Origin: Vulcanimicrobiota bacterium
GTDB taxonomy: Bacteria; Vulcanimicrobiota; Vulcanimicrobiia; Vulcanimicrobiales; Vulcanimicrobiaceae
Assembly: GCA_019247395.1 (NCBI GenBank)
Contig: JAFAOZ010000322.1
Location: 1 to 13,990 of the forward strand
DNA length: 13,990 bases
Direction: 5' to 3'
The notes beneath the pieces were generated by a model that worked only from the letters and a program-made list of their open reading frames with translations, did no database searches and was not told where the DNA came from. The number at the start of each line of letters is the position of its first letter. Positions within the stretch are counted from its first letter, which is position 1. The translations under genes were made by a program, and so were the position numbers. Shown one piece after another: positions 1-12,962 of this stretch.

Positions 1-546
1 ATTTCGATCAGCGACAATACCGCGGCCGACGCGCTCATCCGCATCGTCGGCGCCGCAGCGTTACGCCCATACGCGTCCGGTAACGATCCGTTTCTGACGA
101 CGCGGGAAATGTTCGTGCTCCACTCGGTTCCCAATGCGGATCTGCGCGATGCCTACGTTGCCGCCGCGACCCCCGCGGCGCGCCGGGTCGTGACGCAGCG
201 CGCCGCGGCCCGACCGCTTCCCACCGTCTCGCAACTCGCGAGCTCGCCGATGCCGGCGATTGAATGGCACTACAGCGTGCGCCGCCTCTGCGAGCTCATG
301 GAGCGGGTGGCGAACCTTCCGCTGATGTCGATCAATCCCGGCGTCGCCGATCCGGACGCGTTCCGCCATGTGGCGTATAAGGGCGGCTCAGATACCGGCG
401 TCATCAACATGACGACCGCGGTGACGACGCGACGCGGATCGCGTATTTGCTTCTCGGCGACGCTGAACGACCCGCAGCATGCCGTCGCGGAACTCGGTTT
501 TGAGACGTCCTATTCGGCGGTCTTGCGCGCGTTGGCGCAGCTCTAG
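1..546 (+). CDS. Class A beta-lactamase-like serine hydrolase, C-terminal part (5' end outside window)
   Basis: The frame is open from base 1 and ends at TAG 544-546, giving the last 181 residues. The fragment starts inside the SDN box (ISISDNT, SDN at fragment residues 4-6), the second conserved motif of class A beta-lactamases. About 120 residues later there is Y-K-G-G-S-D-T-G (K at fragment residue 127), which fits the KTG/KSG box with a KGG variant. The catalytic SxxK motif must lie upstream of the window, so catalytic competence cannot be judged. The family is periplasmic or secreted and hydrolyses beta-lactams or related amide/ester substrates. Many environmental members with degenerate boxes are annotated only as serine hydrolases, and antibiotic resistance should not be assumed. 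Its stop shares the tetramer CTAG with the stop of the convergent PhzF gene. Confidence 0.8.
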   Translation: MSISDNTAADALIRIVGAAALRPYASGNDPFLTTREMFVLHSVPNADLRDAYVAAATPAARRVVTQRAAARPLPTVSQLASSPMPAIEWHYSVRRLCELMERVANLPLMSINPGVADPDAFRHVAYKGGSDTGVINMTTAVTTRRGSRICFSATLNDPQHAVAELGFETSYSAVLRALAQL

Positions 547-1343
547 CCGCCCGGAATCGTGAGCGTCCCCTCCGCGAAGGGAACGCATTCGCCGGCGATG
601 CGCACGCGGTCGCCGCAATCCTCGAGCCACAGCTCGGCGCCGCGCGCCGAGAGTTGCCGCGCGAAAAGCCGCGGTTTCGCCAACACGCCCGACCAGTACG
701 GGGTCAGCGTGCAGTGCGCGGAGCCCGTCGCGTAATCTTCGGCGATGCCGTGCTTCGGAACGAAGTGACGTGAGACGAAGTCGCAATCGGCATCGAAACC
801 ATGGGCGGTGACGGTCAGCGCCGAGAACGGCAGCGCGGCAATCGCGGCGATGTCGGGCCGAAGATCGCGCACTTGCGCGGGGCCGGCGAGCACGGCCATC
901 GCCCGTCCGCCGGCGGCCTCCCAAACTTCGACCGGCCGCATCCCGATCGCGGCCGCGATCGCGTCGTGCTCGCGTTCGCCGTCAGGCGGCATCGCCGGAA
1001 ACTCGAGCGCGATTCGGTCGCCCTGACGCTCCGCGCGCAGCGGACCGGCACGCGCTCCGAAATCGATGCGGCTTCGGCCGGCGTGAAGCCGGTGAAGGAG
1101 CACGAACGCCGTTGCGAGTGTTGCGTGGCCGCAGAGCTCAAGCTCGCCGGCCGGCGTGAACCATCGAATTTCAAAATCGTCGTTGTGCGGCACGAAAAAC
1201 GCCGTCGCGGGCAGGTTCTGTTCCGCGGCGACCGCCTGCAGCGTTCGATCATCGAGCCAGTGATCCAGCGGCACGACCGACGCGGGATTTCCGCGGAAGG
1301 CGTCGCGCGTGAACGCATCAATGTGATAGAAGGGAAGCTTCAC
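543..1343 (-). CDS. PhzF/YddE-family protein with a replaced catalytic Glu
   Basis: This 266-residue protein has the usual length for the PhzF family (duplicated diaminopimelate-epimerase fold). N-terminal lobe features are YHIDAFT near residue 6, RGNPASVV near 17 and the CGHATLATA box (G72-H73). The C-terminal lobe has the signature SRHFVPKHGIAEDYATGSAH with its conserved Asp. The family is known for isomerisation in phenazine synthesis (PhzF) and for many uncharacterised homologues. The segment normally read as N-L-S-E-T-x-F is here N-L-P-A-T-A-F (residues 43-49), so the acid/base Glu equivalent to PhzF Glu45 is Ala46. The gene therefore may not be a classical isomerase. No other phenazine genes are present, so phenazine synthesis is not supported. 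The GTG start lies 6 bases after the stop of the upstream lipoprotein gene, implying cotranscription as the last gene of the four-gene minus-strand run. The Shine-Dalgarno site is weak. Confidence 0.88.
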   Translation of the reverse strand: MKLPFYHIDAFTRDAFRGNPASVVPLDHWLDDRTLQAVAAEQNLPATAFFVPHNDDFEIRWFTPAGELELCGHATLATAFVLLHRLHAGRSRIDFGARAGPLRAERQGDRIALEFPAMPPDGEREHDAIAAAIGMRPVEVWEAAGGRAMAVLAGPAQVRDLRPDIAAIAALPFSALTVTAHGFDADCDFVSRHFVPKHGIAEDYATGSAHCTLTPYWSGVLAKPRLFARQLSARGAELWLEDCGDRVRIAGECVPFAEGTLTIPGG

Positions 1344-2271: not shown

Positions 2272-3666
2272 CTACTCGGTGTCGACGGGCGCGCCGGACG
2301 GCTTCTGATGCTGGAAGTAGCTCTTCGAGTGGCTCGAGGGGATCGGCACAAACGTTCGCGCCTGCTGCGTGAAGTCGAAGGAATCGTCGATGCTGGTCGC
2401 GCGCGCGTCCGTCGTTCCAAGACTTCCCAAGTTAAAGGTATCCTCGATGAACTTCAGGATGCTGCCGAACTCGTATTGCGTGTGGGAGATGTAACCGGGT
2501 TGGCTCGGGGTCGCCTCGCGCGCATAGGCCGAGACGATAATGAGTGGAACTCGAAATCCGAGCCCTCCCCACTGGTCGGCAAACGGCGGCGGCACGTGAT
2601 CGTAAAAACCGCCCCAATCGTCCCACACCACGATGACCGCCGTATTCGGCCAGTACGTGGAACTCTCACCGATCGCGTTGACGATGCTTGCAACCCACGA
2701 AGGTCCCGTGTCGCCGCCTGGCCCGGAGGGATGGTCGGAGTTTTGGCGGTCGGGAACGATCCACGACACGGCGGGGAGCTGTCCGGCGCTGATGTCGCTG
2801 AAGATATTCGTTTCCGGCGTTGAAATGTTCGTCTTCCACTCGGAGCCTTCACGTACGGCCTTGATCGCATCGAACGCGTTCCAGAGCTTTCCTTCGCCGC
2901 CCTGAATCGGCGGGGAGTAGTACTTCCACGAAACGGATTTTGCGTCGAGCAGGTCGCGCAGTGTTGCATATGTTAGGCACGGATACGGGCCTAGCTGCTG
3001 CACCTTCAATGTGGTTCCGACAAGCTTCAAGACGGGCGTCCTGGTGCCTGACGGCGCGTCGCATCCCCAGGGAGTGTGGGTCGGCACGTCTACGAGACTC
3101 TTCGTCTTTGCCTGGTTGACGATCGTGGCTCCGGCGATCAAATCCTGATGTGCCGTAAAACTGCCGCTGCCTTGGGTTTGGAACATGGCATCGCCGAGCA
3201 CGTACTGCCCCGCCATGAACCAGTACGGTACGATCTGCTGCGGATCGACGTACTGATAGGCGGCAGTGACGTTGCCGTGGCAGGCGCCGGCGCCCTGGCC
3301 GAAGCCGTCCATCTTTCCGCCGTCGAGCTGTTTGAGGAAGCCGCCCACGTAACCATGCGGAAAATCGCAGCTCTCTTTGAGGTTGACCTTCGCCAACGGC
3401 ACGTAGACGTCGCCGCTGGGCGTCTGCATCAAGCCTTGCGTGGCACCGTTTGCACCCGGGAATGTCGCAAAAAGGTCGTCAAAGCTCCGGTTCTCTTGAA
3501 CGACGACGACGATATGCTGAATGTAGTTTGAGCTGTTCTTCTTTTTATGTGAATCGCTCAGCGGAAGCGACGACGTTCCCGGCGCAGCGGAATTTCCGGT
3601 GCACGAAACCATCGCCAGCGCGGCGGCCAATAGCAGTAGCGGGGCGGAAAGACGCGAGAGCTCCAA
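2272..3666 (-). CDS. PF04185 phosphoesterase (phospholipase C/acid phosphatase-like) lipoprotein
   Basis: This 464-residue protein belongs to the phospholipase C/AcpA phosphoesterase family, which cleaves phosphate esters outside the cytoplasm. The family opening is clear: IQHIVVVVQENRSFDDLF (49-66) with the metal/nucleophile-region residues E58 and N59. Further conserved blocks are NSDHPSGPGG (309-318), VVWDDWGGFYDHVPPP (347-361, with D349, D350, D356, H357) and YISHTQYEFGSILKFIE (392-408, H395). The N-terminus has a hydrophobic signal (residues 8-20) ending in M-V-S-C, so Cys22 is a probable lipid anchor. It has no twin-arginine motif, unlike many secreted PLCs. The start codon appears to be TTG, because no ATG or GTG precedes the signal sequence in frame. 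GGAAAG lies about 11 bases upstream. The start is 43 bases after the MFS stop. Substrate is unknown, and phospholipids or soluble phosphomonoesters are both possible. Confidence 0.9.
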   Translation of the reverse strand: MELSRLSAPLLLLAAALAMVSCTGNSAAPGTSSLPLSDSHKKKNSSNYIQHIVVVVQENRSFDDLFATFPGANGATQGLMQTPSGDVYVPLAKVNLKESCDFPHGYVGGFLKQLDGGKMDGFGQGAGACHGNVTAAYQYVDPQQIVPYWFMAGQYVLGDAMFQTQGSGSFTAHQDLIAGATIVNQAKTKSLVDVPTHTPWGCDAPSGTRTPVLKLVGTTLKVQQLGPYPCLTYATLRDLLDAKSVSWKYYSPPIQGGEGKLWNAFDAIKAVREGSEWKTNISTPETNIFSDISAGQLPAVSWIVPDRQNSDHPSGPGGDTGPSWVASIVNAIGESSTYWPNTAVIVVWDDWGGFYDHVPPPFADQWGGLGFRVPLIIVSAYAREATPSQPGYISHTQYEFGSILKFIEDTFNLGSLGTTDARATSIDDSFDFTQQARTFVPIPSSHSKSYFQHQKPSGAPVDTE

Positions 3667-5127: not shown

Positions 5128-6057
5128 ATGAGTGCATTCGATCGGCCCTTGCGCGGCGCAATACTCGCCGCGGCCGACAGCGCGCTCGTTCGCCGCGCCG
5201 TGACGCGGTACGGCATGCGGCTGGGTGCTCGACGCTTCGTCGCGGGAGAGACGGCCGAACAGTTTATGGCGGTCGCGCGCGAGGCTAACGCGCAAGGGTT
5301 CGCCGTCGCATCGACGATTTTAGGAGAGAGCGTCAACGACCGCGAGGAAACCCTCGAGGTAACGCGCCGCTACTGCGCGCTGCTGCGAGCGTTCGCCGAT
5401 GAGAAGCTCGATGCGAACGTCGCGTTCAAGCTGACACACGTGGGGCTCGACATCGACTGGGCACTGGCACTCGACAATGCGTCGCAGATCGTTGCCGCGG
5501 CCGCCGAGAGCGGACGCACCGTCAGGATGGATATGGAGCAATCGCGCTACGTCGATCGCACGCTGGAAATTTTTCGCCGGCTGCGTCAACGATATGACAA
5601 TGTCGGCTTCGTTCTGCAATCATATCTCTACCGCAGCGTGGACGACCTCGTTGCGGTACTGCCCCTCGCGCCGAATCTTCGCATCGTCAAAGGTGCATAC
5701 TTAGAGCCGCCGGAGCTCGCCTATCCGCACAAGCGTGACGTGGATGCGAATTATGTCAGACTGCTGGAGACCGCACTTTCCCACGACGGCTACACCGCCG
5801 TGGCGACCCACGATCCGGAGCTGATCGCGCGTACCGCCGAATTTACCGCCGCTCGTGGATTGCCCAAGCAGGGCCGCTTTGAATTCCAGATGCTCTACGG
5901 CATCGCGACGGGTTTGGCGCGAATGCTGCTCGAACGCGGCTACCGCGTGCGGCTCTCGATTCCGTTCGGCGAGTACTGGTTTCCTTACTTGATGCGGCGT
6001 CTCGCCGAACGCCCGGCAAACCTCGCCTTCTTTCTCAAAGGCGCATTTTCGAAGTGA
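5128..6057 (+). CDS. Proline dehydrogenase family flavoenzyme, possibly hydroxyproline-specific
   Basis: This 309-residue monofunctional PRODH has a beta-alpha barrel and FAD, and passes electrons to quinone at the membrane. Its length matches bacterial stand-alone enzymes such as that of Thermus. Motifs are FKLTHVG (100-106, K101), RMDMEQS (133-139), GFVLQSYLYRS (160-170), LRIVKGAYLE (184-193), VATHDPELI (225-233), FEFQMLYGI (251-259) and the substrate-binding tail IPFGEYW...YLMRRLAERP (278-296, R290/R291). Thirteen residues before R290 proline-specific enzymes carry a tyrosine (T. thermophilus Tyr275, E. coli PutA Tyr540). Here it is Ser277, as in human PRODH2, which oxidises trans-4-hydroxyproline. 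Start choice is firm: GAAGGA then six bases then ATG. Its TGA overlaps the GTG of the aldolase gene. No P5C dehydrogenase gene is nearby, so the product must be processed elsewhere. Confidence 0.93.
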   Translation: MSAFDRPLRGAILAAADSALVRRAVTRYGMRLGARRFVAGETAEQFMAVAREANAQGFAVASTILGESVNDREETLEVTRRYCALLRAFADEKLDANVAFKLTHVGLDIDWALALDNASQIVAAAAESGRTVRMDMEQSRYVDRTLEIFRRLRQRYDNVGFVLQSYLYRSVDDLVAVLPLAPNLRIVKGAYLEPPELAYPHKRDVDANYVRLLETALSHDGYTAVATHDPELIARTAEFTAARGLPKQGRFEFQMLYGIATGLARMLLERGYRVRLSIPFGEYWFPYLMRRLAERPANLAFFLKGAFSK

Positions 6058-6917
6058 AGGGCATTTACGCTGCCGTGCTGACGCCGGTCGACGAACGCTT
6101 CGCGCCCGACGCTGCGCGCGCGTTGCCGTACTACCGCGAGCTTTTGGGGCGCGGATGCGATGGCCTCAATCTGCTCGGAACGACCGGTGAGGCGATGTCG
6201 TTGAGCGTGAAGCAGCGGGTCGCGTTCATGGAGGCGATTGCTTCGAGCGGGTTGCCGATGGAGCGTATGATGGCCGGCACCGGGGCGGCGTCGCTCGACG
6301 ATGCTGCCACGCTGACGGCGACGGCGTTCGGTTGCGGGTTTTCCGCTGCGCTGATCATGCCGCCATTCTTTTTCCGCGATGCGGACGACGATGCAATCTT
6401 TCGCTTTTATGCCGAGCTTTTCGCGCGAACCAATCCGCCGCGCAACGGCGTGCTGCTCTACAACTTTCCGCGTATGAGCGGGATTGCGTTCCGGCCCACG
6501 CTCGTGGCGCGGCTGGTTGCCGAGTTTCCGCAGGCGATCGCGGGCATGAAAGATAGCTCCAACGACCCGGAATTGCAGTCGGAGATTCTCGCCGCACACC
6601 GCGACCTAACGATGTTCCCAGGCTCGGAGAGCGATCTGCTCTCAGCGAAGCGCCGCGGCTGCGCCGGATGCATCTCGGGGAGCGTTGCGCTCTGGCCTGA
6701 GCTCGCGCAGGCGGGTTTCCGCGACGAAGACGAGACGCAGGCGCGGCAACTCGCGCAGCGTCGAGCGCAGCTCGATGGCGTGCCGTTTATTCCGGCGGTA
6801 CGGTATCTTACCGCGAATGAGCGCAGCGAACCCCAATGGGAGCGCGCGGTGCCGCCGCAGCGCGGGTTAACGGCGGAAGAAGGGCGAGCGCTTCGAGCCC
6901 AGGTTAAACGCGGTTAG
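6054..6917 (+). CDS. DHDPS/N-acetylneuraminate lyase superfamily aldolase (HOGA- or KDG-aldolase-like)
   Basis: This 287-residue class I aldolase superfamily protein forms a Schiff base between lysine and a 2-oxo acid. Visible signatures are LLGTTGEAMSLS (40-51), the catalytic tyrosine in YNFPRMSG (Y136) and the Schiff-base lysine in GMKDSS (K166). The arginine that true dihydrodipicolinate synthases use for aspartate semialdehyde (E. coli Arg138) is replaced by Met141, so lysine biosynthesis is unlikely. The GTG start overlaps the proline dehydrogenase stop (GTGA), indicating translational coupling and a shared pathway. 4-Hydroxy-2-oxoglutarate aldolase (hydroxyproline catabolism, giving pyruvate and glyoxylate) belongs to this superfamily and would fit. 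2-Keto-3-deoxy sugar-acid aldolase and pyrroline-4-hydroxy-2-carboxylate deaminase are alternatives. The last 51 bases overlap the end of the convergent propeller gene. Confidence 0.88.
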   Translation: MKGIYAAVLTPVDERFAPDAARALPYYRELLGRGCDGLNLLGTTGEAMSLSVKQRVAFMEAIASSGLPMERMMAGTGAASLDDAATLTATAFGCGFSAALIMPPFFFRDADDDAIFRFYAELFARTNPPRNGVLLYNFPRMSGIAFRPTLVARLVAEFPQAIAGMKDSSNDPELQSEILAAHRDLTMFPGSESDLLSAKRRGCAGCISGSVALWPELAQAGFRDEDETQARQLAQRRAQLDGVPFIPAVRYLTANERSEPQWERAVPPQRGLTAEEGRALRAQVKRG

Positions 6918-8402: not shown

Positions 8403-9152
8403 ATGCAGGTTCGACCGCGCATTCCGGACACCCAGCAGCGCCGCTCGCTGGAGAAACGGCGCAGCATTCGCGAAATCGTCTTCGGAATGCAAGACGGCAT
8501 CCTCACGACGCTCGGAATCATCACGGGCGTCGGCGTTGCCGAAGGCGCTCGCTCCGCGGTTTTCATCAGCGGATTTTTGGCGTTGCTCGCCGGCGCGCTG
8601 TCCATGGGCGTCGGCGAATATCTCGGCCGCAAATCGGAACGCGAGGTCGTTGCGGCGACGATCGACTTGGAACGGCGTGAAATGGCCGACGATCCCCAAG
8701 GCGAGTTCAGCGAACAGGTGGCCTTTTACAAGCTCAAAGGTTTCAGCTCCGAAGAGGCGGAGATGATCGTGCGTCGCCTGACGCAACACCCCGAAATCTT
8801 CCTTTACGAAATGGTGCGCGATGAGTTCGGTATCGACCCCCGCGTCGCCGAAGAGAGCGGGCTGCGTGCGCCGCTTTCAATGGCGGGCTCCTTTGCGCTT
8901 GGATCGCTGCTTCCGATCGCTGCCTTCGCGCTGCCGCTTTCAATCGGCGCGTCGACGCTGGTATCGCTGCTCTTTGCGCTGACCGGACTCTTTGCCGTGG
9001 GGTATTATGCCGGAACACTGAGCGAGCGTAGTCCCTTCGGCAAGGGCTTCGAAGTTGCACTGTACGGTTGCGGCGTCTTTATCGTCTCGTATCTCGCGGG
9101 TCACTTTATTCCGCCGCTTTTCGGGCACGCCCCCGTTTCGGTCGGCGGCTGA
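8403..9152 (+). CDS. VIT1/CCC1-family Fe(II)/Mn(II) transporter
   Basis: This 249-residue membrane protein has the VIT1/CCC1 layout. Helix 1 carries the conserved FGMQDGILTTLGIITGVG (27-44, with Asp31-Gly32). Helix 2 ends in the charged motif GEYLGRKSERE (71-81, Glu72). A cytosolic helical metal-binding domain (about 85-150) is rich in Glu and contains LERREM, SSEEAEM and YEMVRDE. Three further hydrophobic helices follow (158-180, 183-205, 216-236). Family members move Fe2+ or Mn2+ out of the cytosol in exchange for protons, in plants and yeast into vacuoles and in bacteria probably out of the cell, protecting against metal overload. The ATG lacks a clear ribosome-binding site. The TGA overlaps the ATG of the downstream permease by one base (TGATG), so the two are coupled. 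Confidence 0.92.
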   Translation: MQVRPRIPDTQQRRSLEKRRSIREIVFGMQDGILTTLGIITGVGVAEGARSAVFISGFLALLAGALSMGVGEYLGRKSEREVVAATIDLERREMADDPQGEFSEQVAFYKLKGFSSEEAEMIVRRLTQHPEIFLYEMVRDEFGIDPRVAEESGLRAPLSMAGSFALGSLLPIAAFALPLSIGASTLVSLLFALTGLFAVGYYAGTLSERSPFGKGFEVALYGCGVFIVSYLAGHFIPPLFGHAPVSVGG

Positions 9153-10231
9153 TGGAGATCGTCCACGCCCTCGTCGCCGGCCTGGCGCAGGCGGCGGCGT
9201 TCTTTTGGGATAGCCTCTTCGGCTTGATCTTCGGATTTCTCATTTCGGCGATCGTGCAAGTCATGCTCACGCCCGCGACGATGGAGCGGTATCTCGGGCC
9301 CGGGCTCAAAGGGTTGCTCTACGGAGCGGGATTCGGCATCATTTCGTCTGCATGCTCGTACGGCGCGGCTGCGGCAGCGCGCGGCTTCTATCGAAACGGC
9401 GCCGACGCGCGTTCCGTTTTCGCCTTTCTGATCTCTTCGACCAATATGAACGTCGCAATCTTGGTTCTGTTTTGGTCGCTTCTCGGCTGGAGGTTCGCCT
9501 TCGCCGAGTTTTTTGGCGGCGTCATCATCATCGGCGTCGTGACCGCTGGTCTTTCGCTCTTTTTTCGCGGCAGCTCGCTGCAAGCGCTGCAGCGTGGCTA
9601 CATTCAAGCCGAAGCACCGGAAACGGAGGAGACCTGCGAGCATCACGGTCACGGCACGCATGCGGCGCGGCGCGATTGGAATGCCGTGGCCGCGACGGCG
9701 TTGGCCGACGTACGTATGCTGCGCACCGAGTTGATCGTGGGCTATCTCATCGCCGGTTACGCCGCGGCGCTCGTGCCGCCTGGATGGCTCGCCGGCGCCT
9801 TGCATGCCGTCGGCAGCGTTCCGTTCGCCGGATACGTATTGCTGCTCGCGACCGGCTTGCTAATTGCGATTGCCACCTTCGTGTGCTCGATGGGAAACGT
9901 TCCGGTAGCGCGTTTTCTCGCAAACGTGGGCATTCCGCTCGGCGCGAACACCACGTTCATCTACGGCGATCTGTTGATTCTGCCGTTGATCGCAATTTAT
10001 CGCAAATCGTTTCCGCCGCAAATCACAGCGGCGTTCGTCGCGCTCTTTGCAATTGGGGCCATGTTTGCCGGTGCAGTAATGGAAAAGCTGATCGGTAGCA
10101 CGCTAGGCGGCGTTGCAATGGGTTCCATGGCAATGAACGATCGCTTCACATTGATTTCAAACATTGTTGCAATCGCAGCCGTGCTCGTGGTTGCCATTGC
10201 GTCGCGACGGGCCGCTCTAATGTTCCGCTAA
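9152..10231 (+). CDS. PF03773 (DUF318, ArsP-like) permease with a Cys/His-rich loop
   Basis: This 359-residue polytopic membrane protein starts at ATG 9152 inside the VIT stop (TGATG); the longer in-frame extension to 9068 is antisense-like coding over VIT and was rejected. Two related halves each carry a membrane cysteine motif. The first is SSACSYGAAAAARGFYRNG (65-83, Cys68) followed by FLISSTNMN (92-100). The second is FVCSMGNVPVARFLANVG (243-260, Cys245). This fits the predicted-permease family that includes ArsP, an exporter of trivalent organoarsenicals. The central hydrophilic loop contains C162-E-H-H-G-H-G-T-H170 (His164, 165, 167, 170), a possible metal-binding patch. Coupling with a VIT transporter favours a metal or metalloid export role, but the transported species is unknown. 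Confidence 0.85.
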   Translation: MEIVHALVAGLAQAAAFFWDSLFGLIFGFLISAIVQVMLTPATMERYLGPGLKGLLYGAGFGIISSACSYGAAAAARGFYRNGADARSVFAFLISSTNMNVAILVLFWSLLGWRFAFAEFFGGVIIIGVVTAGLSLFFRGSSLQALQRGYIQAEAPETEETCEHHGHGTHAARRDWNAVAATALADVRMLRTELIVGYLIAGYAAALVPPGWLAGALHAVGSVPFAGYVLLLATGLLIAIATFVCSMGNVPVARFLANVGIPLGANTTFIYGDLLILPLIAIYRKSFPPQITAAFVALFAIGAMFAGAVMEKLIGSTLGGVAMGSMAMNDRFTLISNIVAIAAVLVVAIASRRAALMFR

Positions 10232-11649: not shown

Positions 11650-12246
11650 GTGCCTCCGCAGCGCGTTGAGGAGGGGAAGTGCGTAACGGCAATACCAGCG
11701 AAGAACGACAGTGTGGAAGAGGCAGGCCGCCTCATGGACCGAGTGCGGGCGCGTGATGCCGACGCATTTGAGGCGCTGTACGACCAGTATCATCGTCTGG
11801 TCTACGGCGTGGCGTTTCGCGTGCTCTCCGACGCCGCGGCGGCCGAAGATGTGACGCAGGCGGTCTTTCTTCGAATATGGAGCGCTCCAGAGCTTTTTCG
11901 CGACGGCAATTTCGGCGCGTGGGTCGCGCGAATCGCGCGTAACCGAGCGTACGATATTGTGCGCAGCCGCAATTTGCATCCGCAGAGCGAACTGCCGGAG
12001 ACCCTGCCGGTCGAAGACGCCGTTGACGAGACGGTGATTGCGAACATGAGCGGCGAACGAGTGCGTCTGGCGCTCGAGCAGCTTCCGCCCGAGCAGCGAG
12101 AGCCCATCGAACTCGGCTTTTTTGGGGGCGTCACGCACGATCAGATCGCTCGCACAACGGGCCTTCCGTTGGGGACCATCAAGACGCGAATTCGCACGGG
12201 CCTGCGGCGGCTACGCGCTGCACTGCAAGAGACGGTGACGGTATGA
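11650..12246 (+). CDS. ECF-type RNA polymerase sigma factor
   Basis: The 198-residue reading starts at GTG 11650. Region sigma-2 spans about 38-106, with AFEALYDQYHRLVYGVAFRV (40-58), the core-binding/-10 helix AEDVTQAVFLRIW (65-77) and FGAWVARIARNRAYDIVRSR (88-107). Region sigma-4 spans 138-192: LEQLPPEQREPIELGFFGG, then a helix-turn-helix HDQIARTTGLPLGTIKTRI (163-181). The spacing is that of group 4 (extracytoplasmic function) factors. A strong purine tract GAGGAGGGGAAG (11668-11679) lies inside this frame, and no in-frame ATG/GTG sits at ideal distance behind it. GTG 11713 (177 residues) is an equally plausible start. The TGA overlaps the ATG of the anti-sigma gene (ATGA), the usual arrangement for a co-translated sigma/anti-sigma pair. 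Confidence 0.94.
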   Translation: MPPQRVEEGKCVTAIPAKNDSVEEAGRLMDRVRARDADAFEALYDQYHRLVYGVAFRVLSDAAAAEDVTQAVFLRIWSAPELFRDGNFGAWVARIARNRAYDIVRSRNLHPQSELPETLPVEDAVDETVIANMSGERVRLALEQLPPEQREPIELGFFGGVTHDQIARTTGLPLGTIKTRIRTGLRRLRAALQETVTV

Positions 12247-12962
12247 CGCCGCACGACGAACTGCTCGACAGCGTCGCGGCGTACGCGCTTGGAGTCTTGC
12301 CGCCGTCGGAGGCCGCCGGCGTCGAAGCGCATCTGCAAACGTGTGCGCAATGCCAAGCGGAATATCGCGAACTGCGTCCGGCGGTTACGGCGGTTGCGTA
12401 TTCGGCGGAAGCGTGTGCGGATCCGACGGCCGGTGCGGTGGCCGCGAGCCCGCTGCTCAAAGCTCGTATCATGCGGCGGGTTCGCGCCGAGGCGGCATCG
12501 CGGCCGTCGTCCCGGCGGTATTCGCCCGCGTATGCGTTGGCAGCGGCATGTCTTGCAATTGCGATTATCACGGGGCTCATGGATCTCTCGCTCAGCCGGA
12601 GGCTCAACCGCGAGCTGGCTCAGAGTGCCGCTCAAACCCAGACCATTGCCGACCTCACTGCCGCCGATTCGCGGCGCTATCATTTCTCCGACGGGATGGT
12701 CGTCATGCGCGCCGATCGCGTCTACCTGATGATGCACGATATGCACGCCCCGCCGCCGGGCCACGTCTATCAGGCGTGGACGCTGGCGCACGGCGCCAAA
12801 CGCATGGCGCCCTCGATGACGTTTGCGCCGGGCAACGGCGGCGTCGCGTTCGTGCGACTGCCCGAATCGGCGACGAACATCGCAGCGATCGCAGTCAGCG
12901 TAGAGCCGGATGGCGGCTCGCTGCAGCCAACCACCAAACCGATCGCCGTCGTTAGAATCTAA
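12243..12962 (+). CDS. Membrane anti-sigma factor, RskA-like
   Basis: This 239-residue protein is translated from ATG 12243 overlapping the sigma stop. The N-terminal cytosolic anti-sigma domain carries the zinc-type motif H30-x3-C34-x2-C37, typical of ZAS domains that hold the ECF sigma factor inactive. A single transmembrane helix lies at about 96-114 (AYALAAACLAIAIITGL). After a short coiled linker rich in Gln/Ala (120-140), the extracytoplasmic domain (145-239) has the RskA-C pattern, including HVYQAWTL, a GGVAFVRLP strand and a VSVEPDGGS turn. The family is degraded by regulated proteolysis after an envelope signal, releasing sigma. The signal here is unknown. Downstream, 78 bases separate it from a secreted-protein gene, which may be part of the regulon. 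Confidence 0.92.
   Translation: MTPHDELLDSVAAYALGVLPPSEAAGVEAHLQTCAQCQAEYRELRPAVTAVAYSAEACADPTAGAVAASPLLKARIMRRVRAEAASRPSSRRYSPAYALAAACLAIAIITGLMDLSLSRRLNRELAQSAAQTQTIADLTAADSRRYHFSDGMVVMRADRVYLMMHDMHAPPPGHVYQAWTLAHGAKRMAPSMTFAPGNGGVAFVRLPESATNIAAIAVSVEPDGGSLQPTTKPIAVVRI

Follow-up and report, generated by a model that had tools for sequence, protein, structure and literature searches.

The window analysed here, a stretch of 13,990 nucleotides from a Vulcanimicrobiota bacterium (assembly GCA_019247395.1, contig JAFAOZ010000322.1), carries a proline dehydrogenase (PRODH) gene that overlaps the gene of a DHDPS-superfamily aldolase. The question raised by this pair is whether a bacterium may break down 4-hydroxyproline directly, as animals do. 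The initial annotation had proposed this from a Ser in place of a conserved Tyr in the PRODH and from the aldolase encoded next to it. Its observation of the gene pair was confirmed. The hydroxyproline interpretation is plausible and stands at about an even chance, the substrates of both enzymes being predicted. The host genome is 69% complete and its three named close relatives are all Candidatus Eremiobacterota.

The first gene product is a member of the PRODH family (Pfam Pro_dh, PF01619, E 6.7e-35; 121.4 bits compared to a cut-off of 27). Its AlphaFold model (alignment A1 of 16 sequences, mean pLDDT 86.4) is a TIM-barrel fold and was best matched by Thermus thermophilus PRODH (TtPRODH; 2ekg and 2g37, TM approximately 0.9). 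Ser277 was aligned by phmmer to the Tyr of TtPRODH (2ekg) and DrPRODH (4h6q) with no gap up to R290-R291. This upheld the placement of Ser277 at the Tyr275 column, 13 residues before the Arg pair, and no Tyr was placed there. Judged by its sequence, the protein would not be classed as an L-proline-specific PRODH, the Tyr at position 275 of TtPRODH and 540 of E. coli PutA being absent. An excerpt of PMC3718742 cites PutA Tyr540 as a determinant of the preference for proline over hydroxyproline. According to its title, PDB entry 3e2q contains E. coli PutA Y540S crystallised with trans-4-hydroxy-L-proline, and the Tyr to Ser substitution has therefore already been seen with hydroxyproline bound. 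The window's genome encodes a second PRODH on contig 157 with Tyr at the residue 277 column.

In a survey of 118 related genomes a PRODH match was found in 103, and 52 had a PRODH with at least 50% identity to that of the window, termed type A. Two type A genes were truncated before residue 277, leaving 50 readable. Residue 277 was Ala in 34, Ser in 15, Leu in one and Tyr in none. The comparison PRODHs, consisting of TtPRODH, DrPRODH and 19 sequences from relatives, had Tyr in all 21 cases. As the 19 were a chosen subset of the non-A matches, 40 further genes (type B) were fetched from type-A genomes and all 40 encoded Tyr. A chance change in a single sequence is thus excluded. Ser277 was restricted to the window's genus (15 sequences), and the general feature of type A is the loss of Tyr rather than Ser specifically. 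The use of Ser as a mammalian-like marker, as put forward in the initial annotation, therefore stood in part: Tyr loss is clade-wide, while Ser is a genus-level trait and most type A sequences have Ala. That human PRODH2 has Ser at this column is itself an assumption of the initial annotation.

In a quick tree all type A sequences fell into a single clade (SH-aLRT 99). His104, located three residues past the active-site lysine, was present in 49 of the 50 type A sequences, one of the 21 comparison sequences and none of the 40 type B sequences. Further type A-specific changes were a Ser replaced by Ala99 and the loss of Asp63. The sixteenth readable member of the window's genus (L035, genome G012) has Leu277 and Gln104 and was the sole exception among the 50 both to Ser or Ala277 and to His104. 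In the best 120 of 7998 homologs residue 277 was Ala in 78 and Ser in 42, and K101, D135, Y191, Y287, R290, R291 and E294 were invariant; type A is not decaying, since these seven catalytic positions are kept. The Lys, Asp, Arg-Arg and Glu are presumably the active-site residues of the PRODH family. The names borne by these 120 homologs were plain proline dehydrogenase and many had no name. One of them, P0006 (68% identity), is labelled Acidoferrales, which is probably a binning error. A scan of named genomes with the window PRODH alone, in which distant cases were not sought, gave three loci, all in Eremiobacterota.

The second gene product belongs to the DHDPS superfamily (Pfam DHDPS, E 1.3e-28). 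The Schiff-base Lys166, the catalytic Tyr136 and a GxxGE loop, GTTGE at residues 42-46, are present and are common to the whole superfamily. Met141 occupies the position of Arg138 of E. coli DHDPS, five residues past the Tyr (numbering from an excerpt of PMC3188589). The absence of the DHDPS arginine reported in the initial annotation was thus borne out, as was the GTGA overlap of the two genes (open reading frame coordinates 6054-6057). On this residue the protein would not be a DapA; three DapA-like proteins of relatives retain YNIPGR. The best-scoring solved relative was 3b4u, followed by DHDPS, YagE, NAL and KDG-aldolase entries. The tree position of 3b4u is unsure due to its long branch.

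In 42 of the 52 type-A loci, 30 from family f1 and 12 from family f3, the gene that follows the PRODH gene on its strand encodes the aldolase. The spacing, as projected from tblastn ends, was -4 to +28 nt in 41 loci and +88 nt in one. Two loci were truncated within the PRODH gene. Another, in G084, stops at a contig edge and a related aldolase begins another G084 contig. Although the f3 aldolases share 29-37% identity with that of the window, they group with the f1 aldolases in one clade (95/84). This clade also includes L089, L090, L092 and L093 and lies apart from the three DapA-like proteins and five epimerase-associated DHDPS-like proteins. The latter (L080, L081, L082, L084 and L085) form their own clade (100/97). 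Neighborhoods were compared for 35 loci, with 18 f1 and 11 f3 pair loci set against each other. The clusters in common were the pair, antisense frames to the pair and one cluster seen once per family. Linkage of the pair persists across two families while flanking genes change.

Seven type-A loci had no adjacent aldolase (L040, L043, L044, L047, L051, L052 and L056). Their PRODHs fall outside the 45-row clade that contains the linked ones (SH-aLRT 88), in a region of poorly resolved forks. Two genomes with such loci, G022 and G031, have a related aldolase gene at another site (46 and 44% identity, respectively). At L044 (3-4258) type A lies amid an NCS1-type permease, a class III aminotransferase and an isochorismatase-family hydrolase, which may mark another substrate. 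The aldolase of L092 (1232-3885) starts inside the terminal part of a glycosyl hydrolase family 1 gene, and that of L093 adjoins a GntR-like regulator (by eye).

PF00701, PF01081, 1-pyrroline-5-carboxylate (P5C) dehydrogenase and malate synthase were searched for in 60 genomes, 35 with and 25 without type A, and the tallies were made by hand. PF00701 had exactly two matches in 32 of the 35, four in G022 and one in each of G000 and G020; a single match was found in 13 of the 25. No KDPG/KHG aldolase (PF01081) was found in the 51 f1 and f3 genomes among the 60. Long matches to the hydroxyproline-epimerase family (PF05544) were found in nine of 116 genomes, none of which has the pair. Only G022 among these nine has type A, there without an adjacent aldolase. 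A tenth match over the cut-off, in G056 (type A, no aldolase), covered 69 residues at 27.1 bits. Of the pair genomes, five (G008, G047, G066, G084 and G085) gave short matches that did not reach the cut-off, and there was no PF05544 match in the genome of the window (69% complete). Epimerase-family genes lie near DHDPS-like genes at L080, L081 and L083, in relatives without the pair.

The genes for the middle steps were also looked for, as the initial annotation had suggested. P5C dehydrogenase (TIGR01237) exceeded the cut-off in 24 of the 35 type-A genomes, with partial strong matches in three more. A class III aminotransferase was the next same-strand gene in L042 and L046 and was separated by one opposite-strand open reading frame in L048. 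No gene of this kind turned up by tblastn (E up to 1e-20) in L077 and L100-L115, the 17 wide pair loci of f1. The window's genome does encode a 41%-identical class III aminotransferase on another contig, beside an aldehyde dehydrogenase. Malate synthase (PF01274), tried as a marker of glyoxylate use, was rejected (33 of 60 genomes).

Given these findings, the pair is read, with the case about equally balanced, as an operon through which 4-hydroxy-L-proline (or a close 4-substituted proline) would be catabolised directly, with no epimerisation step beforehand, in the manner of PRODH2/HOGA1. Type A PRODH, in which Ser or Ala replaces the Tyr that packs on C4, would oxidise 4-hydroxy-L-proline at C5 to 3-hydroxy-pyrroline-5-carboxylate. 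Shared P5C dehydrogenase and aminotransferase, the genes for which do not adjoin the pair in most loci, would give 4-hydroxy-2-oxoglutarate. The adjacent class I aldolase would then cleave this to pyruvate and glyoxylate. The reading is supported by the loss of Tyr from an otherwise kept active site, the Tyr-type paralog in the same genomes and the conserved aldolase linkage. Also in its favour, the genomes searched gave no hint of the routes already known from bacteria, 32 of the 35 type-A genomes have exactly two PF00701 matches and, as a minor point, a class III aminotransferase gene lies close to the pair in three loci. HYPDH and HOGA are the only animal enzymes exclusive to the hydroxyproline pathway, the two middle steps being common to proline metabolism (PMC8779045, in part), and a route of this kind would accordingly require two genes of its own. 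That a bacterial phylum independently evolved this animal-style route, a Tyr-less PRODH and a linked DHDPS-superfamily aldolase bypassing epimerisation, is a tentative proposal put at just under an even chance.

Several results weigh against the hydroxyproline reading. Thr44, Met141 and Ser168 of the window aldolase correspond to Asn78, Asn173 and Ser198 of human HOGA (hHOGA), and the first two are mismatched. The available part of PMC3188589 describes the hHOGA-type GxxGE motif and gives a Km for hHOGA N78T that remains wild-type-like. In favour of the reading, three f1 pair aldolases, and only these, have an hHOGA-like Asn in this motif (L022, with GSNGE, L026 and L031). Ser at two residues past the Lys was rejected as a HOGA signature, being present in the relatives' DapA-like proteins, and is non-discriminating because the DapA of these bacteria has Ser too. 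Overall the aldolase residues do not distinguish 4-hydroxy-2-oxoglutarate from sugar-acid substrates. HOGA1 also ranks below DHDPS, KDG-type and NAL entries among solved structures. Co-occurrence of the aldolase with type A was incomplete in both directions: the seven loci above had no aldolase beside type A, and aldolase homologs occur without type A at L092 (59% identity) and L093 (43%), both in epimerase-family positive genomes. G020 (96% complete) has type A, a single PF00701 match that is DapA-like and no PF01081 match. TIGR01237-type P5C dehydrogenase was not found in eight of the 35 type-A genomes (E up to 1e-90), among them G013 (97% complete) and that of the window (69% complete). Three aldehyde dehydrogenases of the latter, two of them cut pieces, were below the NCBIfam P5C dehydrogenase cut-offs and scored better in other families. 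Malate synthase was not enriched with type A (17 of 35 genomes compared to 16 of 25 others).

Alternatively, type A may act on a different imino acid that is bulky or 4-substituted, such as cis-4-hydroxyproline, 4-methylproline, pipecolate or an N-methylated proline, with the aldolase cleaving the matching 4-substituted 2-oxoglutarate. The Ala277 of most type A sequences gives space but no hydroxyl partner, His104 is a second change in nearly all of them, and the permease, aminotransferase and hydrolase genes surround the aldolase-less L044 PRODH. To our knowledge 4-hydroxyproline is the only such abundant substrate known to need exactly two dedicated enzymes, and another imino acid is considered unlikely. 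There is similarly a low probability that type A serves as an additional proline dehydrogenase whose pocket is altered for regulation or redox partner, its aldolase acting on sugar acids and the linkage reflecting co-expression only. In line with this, type A retains the other catalytic residues checked, the L092 aldolase homolog lies beside a glycosyl hydrolase gene without type A, and after 3b4u the DHDPS, YagE, NAL and KDG-aldolase structures outscore HOGA1. However, these genomes already possess a PRODH of the Tyr type (40 examined) and the aldolase linkage holds over two families despite changing flanks. The aldolase-family gene could also encode the pyrroline-4-hydroxy-2-carboxylate deaminase of the epimerase route, which is likewise a DHDPS-superfamily member (PMC4113996, in part). 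This is disfavoured and very improbable, as the five epimerase-neighbor proteins of relatives form a clade separate from the pair aldolases and the pair is missing from all nine genomes in which the epimerase match is long.

Table 1. Features of the gene pair, with positions in the window.
Feature	Positions	Strand	Evidence
Type A PRODH homolog, 309 aa, without Tyr275; candidate 4-hydroxy-L-proline dehydrogenase	5128..6057	+	Pfam, phmmer, tree, residue survey
Ser277 codon (column of TtPRODH Tyr275 / E. coli PutA Tyr540)	5956..5958	+	Ungapped alignment to R290-R291
Arg290-Arg291 codons	5995..6000	+	Invariant in best 120 of 7998 homologs, window protein included
GTGA overlap (aldolase start codon and PRODH stop codon)	6054..6057	+	
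DHDPS-superfamily class I aldolase, 287 aa, GTG start; candidate 4-hydroxy-2-oxoglutarate aldolase	6054..6917	+	Pfam, PDB relatives, tree
Schiff-base Lys166 codon (motif GMKDSSND)	6549..6551	+	Alignments

Close to the pair are genes for a phosphoesterase-family protein (2272-3666, minus strand) and a PhzF-family protein (543-1343, minus strand). On the plus strand of the window a VIT-family transporter gene (8403-9152) overlaps an ArsP-type permease gene (9068-10231), and homologs of both recur in several neighborhoods of the same genus. An ECF-type sigma factor gene (11650-12246) overlaps an RskA-type anti-sigma factor gene (12243-12962), also on the plus strand.

Both enzyme families are known. 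The conserved pair and the specificity switch were not found in print in open-licence titles, abstract openings and some passages. No bacterial PRODH-type hydroxyproline dehydrogenase was found in the titles and abstract openings, and no open-licence publication was found that combined Eremiobacter* with hydroxyproline. The carriers of the pair are uncultured soil bacteria in which the Tyr-less PRODH is a second PRODH. If the hydroxyproline reading is true, homologs named proline dehydrogenase would be hydroxyproline enzymes and bacteria would possess an epimerisation-free hydroxyproline route convergent with that of animals. Soil Eremiobacterota could then use hydroxyproline-rich proteins of plants and animals. 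Small bacterial relatives of human HYPDH would also become available. According to an excerpt of PMC13155685, HYPDH is a primary hyperoxaluria drug target that does not lend itself to expression on a large scale or to structural studies, and no human PRODH or HYPDH structure exists.

Among known systems, the Lhp/Hyp epimerase route (4HypE, D-Hyp oxidase, pyrroline-4-hydroxy-2-carboxylate deaminase and KGSA dehydrogenase) is likely present in some relatives and shares with the proposed route hydroxyproline catabolism and a DHDPS-superfamily member. It differs in that no epimerase gene was seen with the pair and in that its deaminase-like proteins cluster on their own in the tree. The function of 3b4u, which we take to be from Agrobacterium, is given as a family name only (DHDPS-family protein). 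TtPRODH and DrPRODH are similar to type A in fold, length and the other catalytic residues checked, and also in Glu67 and Arg291, presumably the ion-pair gate of PRODH. Type A differs from both in having Ser, Ala or Leu for Tyr275, in its class-specific Ala99 and His104 and in having no Asp63. Compared to the animal route the window pair is bacterial, its genes are adjacent and overlapping, its PRODH is minimal and Thermus-like, and its activities are predicted; the GxxGE and Tyr+5 residues of the pair aldolases mostly differ from those of hHOGA. The likeness to animal PRODH2/HYPDH and HOGA1 is that two steps have enzymes of their own, one from the PRODH family and one a class I aldolase of the DHDPS superfamily, with middle steps shared with proline metabolism.
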